From a virus, in the IMG/VR virus record IMGVR_UViG_3300008261_000296, positions 1 through 29,149 of that record: DNA of 29,149 bases. One strand, given 5' to 3'. A model generated the notes under the pieces. It had not been told where the DNA came from. It saw nothing but the letters and a program-made list of their open reading frames with translations, and searched no databases. Position numbers and translations under genes: made by a program. This document shows, in pieces, positions 21,328-27,810 of this stretch; position 1 is the first letter of the stretch, and every line of letters starts with the position of its first letter.

Positions 21328-21771
21328 ATGAACGAAGCATCAAAAAATTACCTGAAATACTGGAAAGTTATACGCCAGTATTACAAAGCTAAGCACAAAG
21401 TTAGCCAAGCGGACCTAGATGTCCTGCTTTTTATGTACTCAGAGAACTATTTTACCAGGGAAAGGTTCGATAGATACAATAGAATCCTCACATGGGACCG
21501 ATATCGCTTTGATAAGATGCTCAAAGATGGTTGGTTTGAGGTATTTAGGCCCAAGGAGGGCAAGAAAAGGACTGTCTATAAGATGACAGGCAAGGGAAGA
21601 CACCTTGTGAGTGACATTTACAGGAAGCTTAATGGAGAAGAGATACCAACAAGCAAGAGTAACAACCCCATGTTTTTGAGGAAGGTCAGATATACCCACA
21701 AGGTGTACAAGAATATGATAATAGAGATGAATGAGTTTATTCAACAACAACGACGTCAATCTCCCGAATGA
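21328..21771 (+). CDS. winged-helix DNA-binding-type protein
   Basis: 147 residues, the only plus-strand gene left of the control region. It has helical YLKYWKVIRQYYKAKHKVSQ, then ADLDVLLFMYSENYFTRERF, a likely recognition helix around DRYRFDKMLKDGWFEVFRPK and a wing-like KKRTVYKMTGKGRHLVSDIY. This arrangement fits a MarR-like winged-helix fold. The leader TTTAATCTAATG is A/T-rich without Shine-Dalgarno. It faces the small-protein operon across an inverted repeat, so auto-repression or control of that operon is a natural inference. Its 3' end overlaps groES by 35 bp in opposite orientation. Confidence 0.65.
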   Translation: MNEASKNYLKYWKVIRQYYKAKHKVSQADLDVLLFMYSENYFTRERFDRYNRILTWDRYRFDKMLKDGWFEVFRPKEGKKRTVYKMTGKGRHLVSDIYRKLNGEEIPTSKSNNPMFLRKVRYTHKVYKNMIIEMNEFIQQQRRQSPE

Positions 21772-21994
21772 TGGTATGCTGCTCATTGTTGATGATCATC
21801 GTGAATGAGTGACCTTTGTCGTAGTACACTACATCGCCTTCTTTGATGACGGTCACGTCAGTACCTGGCTTGATAACTTTACCCTTTTTATATCTGAACT
21901 GGCTCGCATCTTCTCCTGATAGAATGATGCCTGAGTCAGTTTTTATCTCCTCGTCAATAGCGGAGACCACTATGTATTTGCCAATTGGTTGCAT
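21737..21994 (-). CDS. groES: co-chaperonin GroES
   Basis: 85 residues, slightly shorter than the bacterial 95. N-terminus MQPIGKYIVVSAIDEEIKTD, then the mobile loop SGIILSG that binds GroEL, KGKVIKPGTDVTVIKEGDVV and the ending NEQHTIIREIDVVVVE match GroES throughout. It would cap the phage GroEL ring to allow folding. It lies two genes downstream of groEL in the minus-strand direction, with the SleB-like gene and a terminator between, and overlaps the winged-helix gene tail to tail by 35 bp. The acidic-hydrophobic roof loop is short (YYDKGHS). Confidence 0.88.
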   Translation of the reverse strand: MQPIGKYIVVSAIDEEIKTDSGIILSGEDASQFRYKKGKVIKPGTDVTVIKEGDVVYYDKGHSFTMIINNEQHTIIREIDVVVVE

Positions 21995-22004
21995 TTGATT
22001 AAAT

Positions 22005-22511
22005 TTATGGTAATAAGAAAAATGTTACGTCACCTATTTTTTTGTATTGCCTCAGTGTTTTGAACCAGACTCTAGCCTTTTGTGATATGATACCCATATT
22101 GCAGAAGGCATATATCCTTGGCTCCCCCTTTCTGATGCCATTCTTTACAATGTCAATAGCTATCTTTTTGTGCGTGACTGTAGGCTCAGCCTTCCACCAA
22201 ATATAGTTCTCTTTATTTACACCGGAGAAAGCTTTAGGCCGAAGGATTGCCTTTGTGATGCTGATGCCATACATCTCGGCATGGACCACTGCCGTTATCG
22301 CCATCAGGCGCAGCCCCTCTGTATCTGTCGAGTCAGGTGTCTCTGACATGAGCATCTTTGCTAGCCAGTCAACGTCAGTCCATTTTGACTTTGGCTTTTT
22401 GTTGATAGACCAATTCTTAAACTCTGCTTTTATGAAAATAGCTGGGGCAGGTCTTGAATTGGATAGAGATGATGTCGCAATAAGCAGGATAAATAATAGT
22501 ACATTTCGCAT
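22005..22511 (-). CDS. secreted SleB-like cell-wall hydrolase
   Basis: 168 residues. A signal peptide is clear (MRNVLLFILLIATSSLSNS). The remainder (from about residue 45) follows the cell-wall hydrolase SleB fold: WLAKMLMSETPDSTDTEGLR with the catalytic-type Glu, LMAITAVVHAEMYGISITKA, and KAFSGVN, then RIYAFCNMGIISQKARVWF. These enzymes cut the glycan strand of peptidoglycan. A signal peptide means it can be exported without a holin, unlike the YkuD-type endolysin of the lysis block. It begins 19 bp past a terminator and has a leader with TTTAATCTAATG. Confidence 0.7.
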   Translation of the reverse strand: MRNVLLFILLIATSSLSNSRPAPAIFIKAEFKNWSINKKPKSKWTDVDWLAKMLMSETPDSTDTEGLRLMAITAVVHAEMYGISITKAILRPKAFSGVNKENYIWWKAEPTVTHKKIAIDIVKNGIRKGEPRIYAFCNMGIISQKARVWFKTLRQYKKIGDVTFFLLP

Positions 22512-22530
22512 TAGATTAAATTTAAATTAG

Positions 22531-22560
22531 AAAAAAAAGGGCTGGGCATTGACCCAACCC
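22531..22560 (-). terminator. rho-independent terminator after the synthetase-like gene
   Basis: On the minus strand GGGTTGGG (22553-22560) pairs with CCCAGCCC (22539-22546), with one G-T wobble and a 6-nt loop, followed by eight T residues. It closes the groEL transcript before the SleB-like gene. Confidence 0.85.
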
Positions 22561-22583
22561 CCTTCACTTTAAAAACCGAAAAA

Positions 22584-22772
22584 CTAATCAATAAGTTTGC
22601 TCATCTCCATCGCTCTGATGAGTCGGGTTATCCCGATGCCACCGCCTACGCGTGGGATGAATTTATTTTGCAAGAACTCCTCAAGCTCAGCCATCACTCT
22701 GCTATAACTGAACAGGTCGAATAGCTTCTCAGCGTATTTGCCTCCCTCGATAGAGAAGAATGTTGTCCTCAT
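22584..22772 (-). CDS. C-terminal fragment of class II aminoacyl-tRNA-synthetase-like protein
   Basis: 62 residues from an ATG overlapping the preceding stop (ATGA). It contains the class II motif 3 (PRVGGGIGITRLIRAMEMSK), preceded by SIEGGKYAEKLFDLFSYSRV. The same frame continues upstream of the ATG as TDSAERSCDIEQ, matching the segment expected just before it in the family, so this is the rest of the 22769-23329 protein in another frame and not a free-standing gene. Confidence 0.6.
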   Translation of the reverse strand: MRTTFFSIEGGKYAEKLFDLFSYSRVMAELEEFLQNKFIPRVGGGIGITRLIRAMEMSKLID

Positions 22773-23329
22773 CTGCTCGATGTCGCAGCTGCGCTCAGCA
22801 GAATCAGTAGTACTGCGTCAGATACGTCTTGGTAAAGCTTTGTCTCTGTGTCATCCTCAATGATGCTGACACCATACTCATCGCATATGTCCTCGTAGTT
22901 TCTGATAGCATGGTCTTTGAAGCCAAGAAACTCAATAAGCTCGATCTCCATTATTGCCAGCTCAGTTATTGTCCCATGAAACTCAAACTCAAACATCGGG
23001 AATATCATGCAGTGCCTACCCTCAATTGGGTCCTCCTCATTGCGGTAGCTTGTTGATAGACAGTAGAATCCTCTTTGCTCCGGCTGTGTCAGCAGCTCAT
23101 GCTCTAACCACATCTGCCCCGTCTGCGGTAGCGGATAGATGTTGTGGTTGTAGGTGAATTGAGCAATGCTATGCGGATTCTCGCAAGCCGCAAGTATTGA
23201 CAACCTGTTCTGCGTATGCACCTCAAGGAAGCCCTTGCTGTCAAAGAACTGTCTGAGCTTCTTAACAACAGCCGTAAATTTTTTCGCATCAATATGCGGA
23301 TAGAAAGACGAATGGAGTGAATGTTTCAT
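22769..23329 (-). CDS. class II aminoacyl-tRNA-synthetase-like protein, N-terminal part (broken gene)
   Basis: 186 residues. It resembles the catalytic core of the AsnRS/AspRS/LysRS type, without the anticodon-binding domain. Motif 1 region: VVKKLRQFFDSKGFLEVHTQ (21-40). Motif 2: TSYRNEEDPIEGRHCMIFPM then FEFEFHG (about 93-119), including the Arg that grips ATP. The last 15 residues after VSDAVLL are out of frame, and motif 3 lies in the following frame (22584-22772). Compared with the family, about 30-40 residues seem to be missing at the junction. It could be an asparagine-synthetase-A-like amidotransferase relative or a tRNA/peptide ligase. It lies just downstream of groEL. Confidence 0.7.
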   Translation of the reverse strand: MKHSLHSSFYPHIDAKKFTAVVKKLRQFFDSKGFLEVHTQNRLSILAACENPHSIAQFTYNHNIYPLPQTGQMWLEHELLTQPEQRGFYCLSTSYRNEEDPIEGRHCMIFPMFEFEFHGTITELAIMEIELIEFLGFKDHAIRNYEDICDEYGVSIIEDDTETKLYQDVSDAVLLILLSAAATSSR

Positions 23330-23331
23330 TA

Positions 23332-24975
23332 TTATTTTTTTACATTGGTTATCTCAAAGCTACGACCCATTGTGATAATAGCATTGGTGCTTAAAATAGT
23401 TGATGCCACACTAACTGCATTTTGCAGCGCACTTCGAGTCACTTTCAATGGGTCAACAACACCCATTTTGATGAGGTCCCCAAACTCACCGGTCTTGACA
23501 TTATAGCCATGCCCATCAGGCACCTTGTCTTCTCCCTCAGGGACATACCTGCAATACACTGCGTCAAAGTCAAGCCCCACATTGGTGAGTATCTGCCTGA
23601 TTGGAGCCTCAAGCGCTGCGTCCATGATATGCCATGCCACATTCTGGTCATGGTTATTGCCATCACCTAACAACCTCGTATGGTCAATCTCAAATAGTGC
23701 TTTGCCGGCCCCTGGCAATATCCCCTCCTCCAAAGCAGAGCGCACTGCACAGACCGCATCGTCAACACGGTCATACAGCTCCTTTTGCTCCAGGTCAGTA
23801 TTACCACCGACATAGATGACACCAATACCCCCTGTCAGTGACGCAATGCGCTCCAGCAGGAAGTCCTTGTCAGCTTTGCGCTTAGCAATGGCGTGAGCCA
23901 TCCACAGCTGCTTGACTCTCTCCTCAACCACGTCAACCTTAACCCTCGCATTTGACTTCAGGATTATTGTCTTGTCATTTGACACAATGACCTTGGCCGC
24001 ATGGCCCAAGTCACCATAGTTGATAAGCGACAGATCGTCACCGGTCTTCTCACTGAAGTATGTCGCACCAACACTTGTCGCAATGTCCTGCATCAGCTCG
24101 TGCTGCTTATACCCAAAATTAGGTGGAGGCACCGCACAAACTTTTATATTCCCCTTCACGACATTTGCCGCAAGGGTATTGACCACATTGGTCCCACATG
24201 GCGCAATGATGAGCAGCTTTTTGCCCTCAGAGATAATTGGCTTTAGCACTGCCTCAATCTGCAAGATATTACTTATCTCAGTGTCAGCAACCAATACCAT
24301 CACATCCTCAAACACACACTCGTCCTTCTTCTGGTCATTGACGAACAGATTGGACAGATAGCCCCTGGCAAACTGCAAGCCCATAGTCGTCTCAGAGTAC
24401 GTCTCACTCGTCTGCGACTTCTCAACAGTGACAATACCAGTGCGCCCTACCTCTCTGTACAGCTCAGCAATAATCTTACCCAGCTCCTTGTCATTATTCG
24501 CTGATATTGTCGCCACGTCAACAAGCATTGCATTCGTCACCTTCTTAGCCTTTGAGGCCAATTGCCTAACCACCTCGTTGCACATAACACTCAAGTGTCT
24601 CAACACCGCAGTGCGGTTCACCTCAGGTGTCAATAGCCTTGTCCCCTCAAGGACCATAGCCTCCGTTAAAATAATACTGGTGGTTGTCCCATCCCCTGCA
24701 TTGGTAGCGGTACGCTCAGCTGCCTCTTTCATCATCCTGACCGCAAGGTTCTCAACCGGATCAAACAGGTCAACCGCCTTGGCGACAGTGACACCATCCT
24801 TCGTAACCGTAATGCTATGCGTGTGATGCGGTGACTCAATGAGCACCGTGTTGCCCCCAGGGCCTAAAGTGGACTTAACAGCAGCGGCAATCTTCTTGAT
24901 GCCATCTATCAATCGCTCTCGTCCTTCATCCCCAAAGACTAAGTCCTTTGGAGTGTAACCTGAATTGTCAAACAT
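23332..24975 (-). CDS. groEL: chaperonin GroEL (phage-encoded)
   Basis: 547 residues, full length. ATP-binding NAGDGTTTS (92-100, with the catalytic-type Asp95) and the hydrolytic Asp in DRVDDAVCAVRSALEEGIL-type sequence are kept; the STLGPGG P-loop (36-42) is present. The apical domain has the expected hydrophobic helices. The GGM-rich C-terminal tail of bacterial GroEL is missing (ends SFEITNVKK), which changes the floor of the folding cavity. It starts a transcript from a consensus promoter (25009-25039) with leader TTAAATCTAAT. Phage chaperonins usually fold capsid proteins; that is inference here. Confidence 0.93.
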   Translation of the reverse strand: MFDNSGYTPKDLVFGDEGRERLIDGIKKIAAAVKSTLGPGGNTVLIESPHHTHSITVTKDGVTVAKAVDLFDPVENLAVRMMKEAAERTATNAGDGTTTSIILTEAMVLEGTRLLTPEVNRTAVLRHLSVMCNEVVRQLASKAKKVTNAMLVDVATISANNDKELGKIIAELYREVGRTGIVTVEKSQTSETYSETTMGLQFARGYLSNLFVNDQKKDECVFEDVMVLVADTEISNILQIEAVLKPIISEGKKLLIIAPCGTNVVNTLAANVVKGNIKVCAVPPPNFGYKQHELMQDIATSVGATYFSEKTGDDLSLINYGDLGHAAKVIVSNDKTIILKSNARVKVDVVEERVKQLWMAHAIAKRKADKDFLLERIASLTGGIGVIYVGGNTDLEQKELYDRVDDAVCAVRSALEEGILPGAGKALFEIDHTRLLGDGNNHDQNVAWHIMDAALEAPIRQILTNVGLDFDAVYCRYVPEGEDKVPDGHGYNVKTGEFGDLIKMGVVDPLKVTRSALQNAVSVASTILSTNAIITMGRSFEITNVKK

Positions 24976-25008: not shown

Positions 25009-25039
25009 CAAAGATAGTGTTAATTTTTAGACCACCAAA
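25009..25039 (-). promoter_or_regulatory. groEL promoter, Bacteroidota type
   Basis: On the minus strand TTTG (25036-25039), exactly 19 bp, then TATCTTTG (25009-25016) match the TTG/TAnnTTTG consensus. The groEL ATG is about 34 nt downstream. A TAGTGTTAAT sequence overlaps the upstream edge of the -7 box. Confidence 0.8.
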
Positions 25040-26460: not shown

Positions 26461-26490
26461 TCAAGCCCAAAACTATAGATAAAACCTTTA

Positions 26491-26505
26491 TGCAACAATG
26501 TTGCA
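26491..26505. repeat. 15-bp palindrome TGCAACAATGTTGCA (copy 2)
   Basis: Second copy of the palindrome at 26310-26324, 181 bp away, about 190 bp before the early promoter. Confidence 0.7.
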
Positions 26506-26671: not shown

Positions 26672-26701
26672 TTGCAGAAATAAAAACCCGCCCTATCTTT
26701 G
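26672..26701 (+). promoter_or_regulatory. early-operon promoter, Bacteroidota type
   Basis: TTG (26672-26674), exactly 19 bp, TATCTTTG (26694-26701): the same boxes and spacing as the groEL promoter. The first gene starts 88 bp downstream, leaving a leader of about 80 nt. Confidence 0.8.
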
Positions 26702-26945: not shown

Positions 26946-27050
26946 ATGGAAACACTAACAGTCTTTTTGATCATTGCATTTTTTGCAGCATTATTTTTTA
27001 ATCCTTATTTTAAGGATGTTACACACACAAACGACACAAATTTATTCTAA
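26946..27050 (+). CDS. 34-residue single-span membrane peptide
   Basis: Found by reading the sequence: METLTVFLIIAFFAALFFNP then YFKDVTHTNDTNLF. One membrane segment (about 4-20) and a short polar tail. It follows the first early gene by 13 bp with an ACACAATG start context. Short, so it could be chance, but the start context and tight packing support it. A membrane-acting early peptide (for example in superinfection exclusion) is a guess. Confidence 0.45.
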   Translation: METLTVFLIIAFFAALFFNPYFKDVTHTNDTNLF

Positions 27051-27068
27051 TCTAACACACACAACAAC

Positions 27069-27773: not shown

Positions 27774-27785
27774 TCAAACATAGGT

Positions 27786-27810
27786 TTGCAGTGATCCTAC
27801 AAAACTGCAA
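27786..27810 (+). terminator. hairpin after 27069-27773, possible attenuator
   Basis: TTGCAGT (27786-27792) pairs with ACTGCAA (27804-27810) across 11 nt and is followed by TTTTAT. The stem is A/T-rich and the T run short, so partial termination or an mRNA-processing structure is as likely as full termination. Confidence 0.4.

Follow-up and report, generated by a model that had tools for sequence, protein, structure and literature searches.

Whether a single ring can sustain a natural GroEL-GroES cycle has long been asked, and work on it has relied mainly on the engineered mutant SR1, mitochondrial Hsp60 and jumbo-phage chaperonins without GroES. The stretch of viral DNA analysed here (IMG/VR record IMGVR_UViG_3300008261_000296, 29,149 nucleotides; hereafter, the window) carries genes for both GroEL and GroES (Table 1), and raises the question of what such a phage-encoded pair does and in which ring form it would work.

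Table 1. Features of the groES-groEL locus and their positions in the window.
Feature	Position	Strand	Evidence
Convergent gene of unknown function, 147 aa	21328..21771	+	No Pfam match
groES, phage co-chaperonin, 85 aa	21737..21994	-	PF00166, alignments, AF2 model
Weak cell-wall-hydrolase-like ORF, 168 aa, directly upstream of groES	22005..22511	-	PF07486 20.9 bits, below cut-off 27
Intrinsic terminator between synthetase-like gene and downstream gene pair	22534..22565	-	14 pairs counted, loop of 4, then T run
Class II aminoacyl-tRNA-synthetase-like gene, broken	22584..23329	-	Alignment to relative L002 and others; PF00152, PHROG 29758; homologues in cyanophages
groEL, phage group I chaperonin, 547 aa	23332..24975	-	Pfam/PHROG/NCBIfam, residue table, tree, dN/dS
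Bacteroidota-type promoter of groEL, TTG-N19-TATCTTTG, 33 nt 5' of ATG	25009..25038	-	Sequence motif

Both genes are genuine, intact, viral and under purifying selection (groEL dN/dS ~0.11-0.13). GroEL matched Pfam PF00118 (E = 6.6e-59, 200.3 bits; cut-off 34.3) and PHROG 5725 'chaperonin groEL' (E = 1e-130), and scored above the cut-offs of the NCBIfam subfamily models NF009487 and NF000592. Against TIGR02348, the NCBI equivalog for canonical GroEL, it reached 457.2 bits, below the equivalog cut-off of 582.1, and the protein is therefore a group I chaperonin but not a canonical GroEL. The three-domain fold is complete, with PDB matches spanning the whole length, an N-terminal extension (GYxPKxL) is present, and all equivalents of the ATP and hydrolysis residues T30, G32, D52, D87, T89-T91, S151, D398 and D495 are kept. 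The original prediction of a full-length groEL with ATP-binding and hydrolysis residues, lacking the GGM tail and accompanied by a groES with a clear mobile loop, was thus borne out: the C-terminus reads ...ITMGRSFEITNVKK, the GGM tail is absent from all 82 lineage members examined as well, and the GroES loop is TDSGIILSGEDASQFRYKKG. GroES matched PF00166 (E = 1e-10, 41.8 bits; cut-off 21.1), and its AF2 model (pLDDT 90) had best PDB matches that were all Cpn10/GroES (GroES Z 10-11). An AF2 model of GroEL (pLDDT 60) was dropped from the interface analysis because its confidence was too low.

The window is a fragment of a virus infecting Bacteroidota. Its terminase (TerL) was 77% identical to that of the unclassified podovirus MW202828, 45% to those of the elemo phages and 37% to that of phi38:1 (Pervagoviridae), while the two human-gut crAss-type records among the matches listed gave 23-25% over 25-40% of the length. 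Judged by terminase alone, the window is a relative of crAss outside Crassvirales; the earlier term 'crAss-like' holds as to kinship but not as to membership, TerL being nearer to Pervagoviridae, Elemovirus and MW202828. The GroEL falls inside no bacterial genus, and its closest cellular counterparts are ~40% identical. The idea that the groEL was recently taken from a host, or that the contig is contaminated, can call on homology to bacterial GroEL and nothing more, and is highly improbable given that the viral GroELs form a clade with 100% support, that a clade of the window lineage with Bacteroidota cellular GroEL was rejected (p-AU 0.008), and that there are hundreds of viral relatives, with synteny common to the best 80. 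GroEL matches of 60-69% in bacterial genome records, which might have suggested a cellular source, sit on small phage-like contigs in MAGs, and where such a contig has a groES it is of the short phage type. A phage lineage without recent host capture, as first suggested, is the outcome. The tree was rebuilt without the worst long branches, which the first tree had joined, and in its rebuilt form fixes no order among phi38:1, elemo and cr108_1.

Among relatives with GroEL-selected loci, groES lies downstream of groEL in 81 of 81, and when records were picked by terminase, all eight that measure 54 kb or more carry both genes. Possession of the pair thus belongs to the core of a podovirus lineage with genomes of ~60-65 kb, related to Cellulophaga phage phi38:1 and the Flavobacterium elemo phages. 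GroEL searches matched 277 phage records in GenBank and at least 443 stretches in IMG/VR; phages with an annotated GroEL include phi38:1, elemo, Maribacter phage Panino and a true member of Crassvirales, cr108_1 (Steigviridae). Nishimura et al. 2017 (PMC5332604) reported GroEL for the phi38:1/IAS-virus group (Group 2 marine Bacteroidetes viruses), where 36 of 78 environmental genomes have it. The statement that phage groEL is rare was hence too strong, and chaperonin carriage in the phi38:1-related group is already known; how the pair has changed seems new.

Within the window the two genes are 1,337 nt apart. The original prediction placed one gene and a terminator between them; the terminator is there, and is a strong one, together with two genes. 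The proposal that groES and groEL are expressed from different transcripts is right as to the terminator, and groEL has its own Bacteroidota-type promoter, but a promoter of this type between the terminator and groES was looked for and not found, which leaves that conclusion short of established. Of 80 relatives, 71 carry a TAnnTTTG element within 200 nt upstream of groEL, and 33 carry the complete TTG-N17-20-TAnnTTTG. The synthetase-like gene is broken by a 103-nt deletion and a frameshift into ORFs of 186 and 62 aa (282 aa in the nearest relative); an exact search of other viral contigs for the deletion junction gave no match, so that a real deletion and an assembly error are not distinguishable, and a PDB sequence search with the intact protein of relative L002 returned nothing at E 0.001. 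The hydrolase-like ORF is found in most of the L002-L014 subclade. The convergent gene comes next after groES in every relative, and in the window the 3' ends of the two overlap by 35 nt. An alternative genetic code, considered for ORF-poor stretches, was unneeded, positions 1-2997 being a 999-aa ORF that runs off the end.

Residue conservation was counted in 49 non-redundant GroEL sequences of the lineage. The ATP-site residues are invariant but for rare single exceptions and G415, which is mostly A. At the apical GroES/substrate surface, L234E, E238K, V263A, V264A and R268K are fixed in 48-49 of 49 sequences, Y203L/M and L259V/I are also fixed, and only L237 is kept from the canonical set of Y203, L234, L237, L259, V263 and V264. 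On the evidence of these alignments, the apical GroES/substrate-binding surface is replaced in concert and then fixed. L237, N265 and F204 are invariant and Y199 is mostly kept, and some binding to the GroES of the host would therefore be possible.

Infected cells produce the GroEL of phi38:1, and preparations of free virions contain it at detectable levels (PMC13288928). Its peptides in those preparations would suit a chaperone-like protein that forms no folding cage and has another role, for example as a virion component or a decoy titrating host GroES; yet an invariant ATP site and a dedicated GroES that is always present (81/81) make such a role improbable, and an abundant complex co-purifying with virions is the simpler reading.

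In 80 of 80 lineage members the phage GroES has no roof hairpin of the kind seen in bacterial GroES, and its mobile loop, which is two residues longer, is fixed for S26, D29, R34 and Y35, again in 80 of 80. The IIL motif of this loop resembles the IVL of E. coli. Bacterial loops vary too ('IP' in Bacteroidota, 'LTG' in E. coli), and the loop change alone is therefore no proof of private pairing.

Contacts between GroEL rings are made by A109, E434, R452, E461, S463 and V464 (PMC2741606). All six positions are hypervariable in the lineage, and five of them (A109, R452, E461, S463 and V464) are conserved in bacteria. Of the 344 columns that bacteria conserve, just 25 are hypervariable in the lineage, and these include all five conserved ring-ring contacts (hypergeometric p ~1e-6; 2e-5 within the equatorial domain). 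Entropy at the ring-ring columns reaches 3.5 bits (lineage median 0.39), while the intra-ring hairpin is near-invariant. An opposite-charge pair at R452-E461 is present in nine of 49 lineage sequences against 26 of 27 bacterial ones, and in place of A109 most have P, E or D; the window GroEL has P at A109, R-D at R452-E461 (R452 kept, D at 461), D at S463 and A at V464. R452, E461, S463 and V464 are the four positions that define the single-ring mutant SR1. We propose that selection has been lost on the contacts holding two GroEL rings back to back.

Against this, the same hypervariability could come from two rings that join through different residues or in a shifted register, and the window GroEL itself still has R452 and a D at 461. 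An ordinary double-ring GroEL-GroES that has merely diverged, its inter-ring interface rebuilt with lineage-variable residues and its apical changes tuned to phage substrates with partner specificity unchanged, would fit the full-length three-domain fold, the invariant L237, N265 and F204 and the likeness of IIL to IVL. We consider it unlikely, though well worth weighing, as the ring-ring columns are unconstrained where intra-ring columns are fixed, and A109 has mostly become P, E or D.

Taken together, the swapped apical surface, the re-fixed mobile loop and the lost ring-ring selection point most likely to a mainly single ring with a private lid. We lean slightly towards a phage-owned folding pair, largely a single ring with a private co-chaperonin acting on phage substrates, of which we infer the single ring, the exclusive pairing and the capsid substrates; the invariant ATP site, the constant co-occurrence (81/81 and 8/8) and the low dN/dS speak for this reading, as do the production of phi38:1 GroEL during infection and the service of the roofless T4 gp31 to a capsid protein. 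The phage would make its own ATP-driven chaperonin pair during infection from a host-type promoter, its GroEL having kept everything that group I chaperonins need for ATPase activity and ring formation. The new lineage-fixed apical surface would go with the re-fixed mobile loop of the roofless GroES, and GroEL would for the most part act as one heptameric ring with that co-chaperonin as its cap, not as a host-type double ring; its substrates would be phage proteins, the 485-aa capsid protein and the portal protein being the likeliest. More tentatively, and with somewhat less than even confidence, the whole Bacteroidota phage lineage may have an obligate single-ring GroEL in which ring-ring coupling is permanently lost and which accepts only the phage's roofless GroES, evolved along with it. 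This would be an 'SR1-like' cage that arose in nature, needs no host partner and takes larger phage capsid proteins.

These many divergent phage sequences appear as a natural experiment in which the ATP site was kept, the partner surface swapped and the ring-ring interface released. If true, they would offer single-ring chaperonins, each with a lid of its own, that can be put to the test, and would explain why these phages carry a 1.6-kb groEL despite the host copy.

The nearest known system is Podoviridae sp. ctfjg026 (MW202828, Manatee Spring), which besides TerL shares an MCP-like protein (67% identical), GroEL (60%) and GroES (56%), with groEL then groES on one strand and the same apical replacements; unlike in the window, groES directly follows groEL (4 nt), with no synthetase-like gene or terminator between. 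Phi38:1 and the elemo phages (Elemovirus) are flavobacterial podoviruses that also have GroEL, GroES, no GGM tail and MCP-like homologues (45% in elemo), but their GroELs are only 34-35% identical and have different apical residues; cpn10 lies upstream of groEL in phi38:1 and groES directly downstream in elemo. For the Group 2 genomes of the 2017 study (PMC5332604), the passages on GroEL do not take up the ring interface, the apical surface or a co-chaperonin. T4 gp31, which serves the capsid protein gp23, also has no roof loop and a longer mobile loop (PMC6318259), and matches the window GroES in structure (Z 8.2-8.4) at 12-14% sequence identity; its partner is host GroEL, whereas the window phage supplies GroEL itself. 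The phi-EL and OBP jumbo-phage chaperonins, also homologous to GroEL, have single-ring states (PMC5934643, PMC7185714), but are very divergent and have no co-chaperonin, in contrast to the window lineage, which always has GroES. Single rings that still bind GroES are formed by E. coli SR1 (R452E/E461A/S463A/V464A), which is engineered; human mitochondrial Hsp60, which uses Hsp10, has single-ring states and also forms double rings.

The window is an IMG/VR virus record of 29,149 bases. Its chaperonin genes groEL and groES are accompanied by the structural block of a tailed phage, which makes up the rest of the sequence and, by PHROG matches, holds further virion proteins besides those tabulated. 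They are separated by 1,337 nt containing a synthetase-like gene, a terminator and a hydrolase-like ORF.

Features of the window
Feature	Coordinates	Strand	Size	Basis or remark
groEL	23332-24975	-	547 aa	Pfam Cpn60 6.6e-59; PHROG 5725 1e-130
Conserved N-terminal extension of phage GroEL	24933-24975	-		consensus GYSPKDL; precedes E. coli GroEL start
Class II aminoacyl-tRNA-synthetase-like gene	22584-23329	-		broken; intact copy at 11659-12507 of L002 (nearest relative)
Terminator	22534-22565			strong; between groEL and groES
Hydrolase-like ORF				weak match; between groEL and groES
groES	21737-21994	-	85 aa	Pfam Cpn10 1e-10
TerL			748 aa	PHROG
Portal			811 aa	PHROG
Capsid-like protein			485 aa	PHROG
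Bacteroidota promoter-like site	26468-26498	-		TTG-N17-20-TAnnTTTG
Bacteroidota promoter-like site	26672-26701	+		as above
Bacteroidota promoter-like site	27037-27067	-		as above
Bacteroidota promoter-like site	27775-27802	-		as above

GroEL relatives are encoded in at least 443 IMG/VR stretches, of which the best 80 formed our set of relatives; MW202828 (Podoviridae sp. ctfjg026) was added for the synteny check (n=81). In all 81, the two genes share a strand, with groES 4 to 2,095 nt downstream of groEL and followed by a convergent homologue of the window's 147-aa ORF. Among records selected by terminase, every one that reaches 54 kb has both genes (8/8), and the three records with neither are all 40-43 kb fragments. 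The pair is under purifying selection, as measured on groEL (dN 0.028/dS 0.25 against L002; dN 0.10/dS 0.81 against L003, another relative).

GroELs of the lineage form a single clade in our trees (100% support), on one side with phi38:1, elemo, cr108_1 (Crassvirales) and immuto and apart from bacteria; long branches leave the branching order within this phage group unsure. The best cellular GroELs are ~40% identical to that of the window, and a clade uniting the lineage with Bacteroidota cellular GroEL was rejected (p-AU 0.008). Terminase similarity places the virus near MW202828 (77% TerL identity), the elemo Flavobacterium phages (45%) and Cellulophaga phage phi38:1 (Pervagoviridae, 37%); human-gut crAss-type records among the matches listed gave weak, partial similarity. 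This phage-type GroEL/GroES also turns up on small contigs in public MAGs that bear the labels Chthoniobacterales, Aliivibrio, TMED88 and Bacteroidetes (L100, L101, L102, L104, L113). Several different ones sit together in the 'Aliivibrio sp. Ust_30' bin, which indicates that phage contigs have been binned with the MAGs.

GroEL is already known in this phage group. Among 78 genomes of the phi38:1/IAS-virus group, Nishimura et al. 2017 reported it in 36 (PMC5332604), a phage DNA polymerase study reports GroEL/GroES-family genes near the polymerase gene in one set of phages (PMC11348598), both proteins are described for Maribacter phage Panino (PMC11590407), and GroEL is annotated in GenBank for phi38:1, elemo, Calle and cr108_1. 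The gene pair itself is therefore not new; its remodelling may be.

This remodelling was examined in 49 non-redundant lineage GroELs against 27 non-redundant bacterial ones, mostly Bacteroidota (E. coli numbering). The ATP site is invariant in the lineage and the GGM tail is absent from every member examined. Apical helices H and I, the GroES/substrate surface, are near-unchanged in bacteria and have been replaced and re-fixed in the lineage (Y203L/M, R231L, L234E, E238K, E257N, A260N, V263A, V264A, R268K; most in 46-49 of 49), with L237, N265 and F204 retained; GroES contacts include L234, L237 and N265 (PMC7289027). The ring-ring contacts A109, E434, R452, E461, S463 and V464 (PMC2741606) are hypervariable columns in the lineage. 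Only 25 of 344 bacteria-conserved columns are hypervariable there, and all five bacteria-conserved ring-ring contacts fall among them (p ~1e-6; 2e-5 within the equatorial domain; 5e-4 under stricter redundancy removal). The opposite-charge pair R452-E461 occurs in 9/49 lineage versus 26/27 bacterial proteins. General decay would not account for this, since the intra-ring hairpin is near-invariant, and misalignment is unlikely because the key columns adjoin invariant anchors (e.g. APLxQIL, NRT).

In lineage GroES the roof hairpin is absent (80/80) and the mobile loop is longer by two residues. S26, D29, R34 and Y35 of this loop are invariant; their Bacteroidota counterparts are P, D, K and P. 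The window GroES model (pLDDT 90) gave Z ~10-11 to GroES structures and ~8 to T4 gp31.

Across the relatives (L002-L082), the space between groEL and groES is a hotspot for insertions, ranging from 4 to 2,095 nt and holding the synthetase-like gene, a 119-120-aa protein that looks like MazG by eye or other short ORFs; groES directly adjoins groEL (≤60 nt) in 10/81. Compared with L002, the window's synthetase-like gene is broken by a deletion of 103 nt; in L007, a further relative, it is broken too. The intact 282-aa protein weakly resembles the models for EpmA, asparagine synthetase A and AsnRS. Its homologues occur in huge phages and in cyanophages P-SSM2/P-SSM5/P-SSM7 (annotated 'tRNA ligase'); in two cyanophage records the matched stretch also bears a tRNA-Asn annotation.

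A textbook Bacteroidota-type promoter, TTG-N19-TATCTTTG, lies 33 nt 5' of the groEL start and points to a Bacteroidota host. Of 80 relatives, 71 have the TAnnTTTG element in the 200 nt preceding groEL, and 33 have the full TTG-N17-20-TAnnTTTG form; in the window, the stretch from the terminator to groES showed no promoter of this type. The window has nine promoter-like sites, overlapping ones included, against ~2.7 expected from shuffles. The tabulated sites group near 26.5-27.8 kb, where genes switch to rightward reading.

The simplest account of these sequence patterns would be a mostly single-ring GroEL7-GroES7 cage, with both oligomeric state and partner specificity as predictions: the chaperonin would still work, ring-ring coupling would no longer be under selection, and the partner surface would have co-evolved with the phage's own GroES lid. 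The homologous GroEL of phi38:1 is produced in infection and detected in free-virion preparations (PMC13288928). By analogy with gp31, whose client is the 56-kDa capsid protein (PMC6318259), phage head proteins are the likely clients. Single rings are known from mitochondrial Hsp60 and the engineered E. coli mutant SR1, and from jumbo phages phi-EL and OBP, which have no co-chaperonin; the novelty of the present lineage, if the account is true, would be that of a natural single-ring phage lineage retaining GroES.
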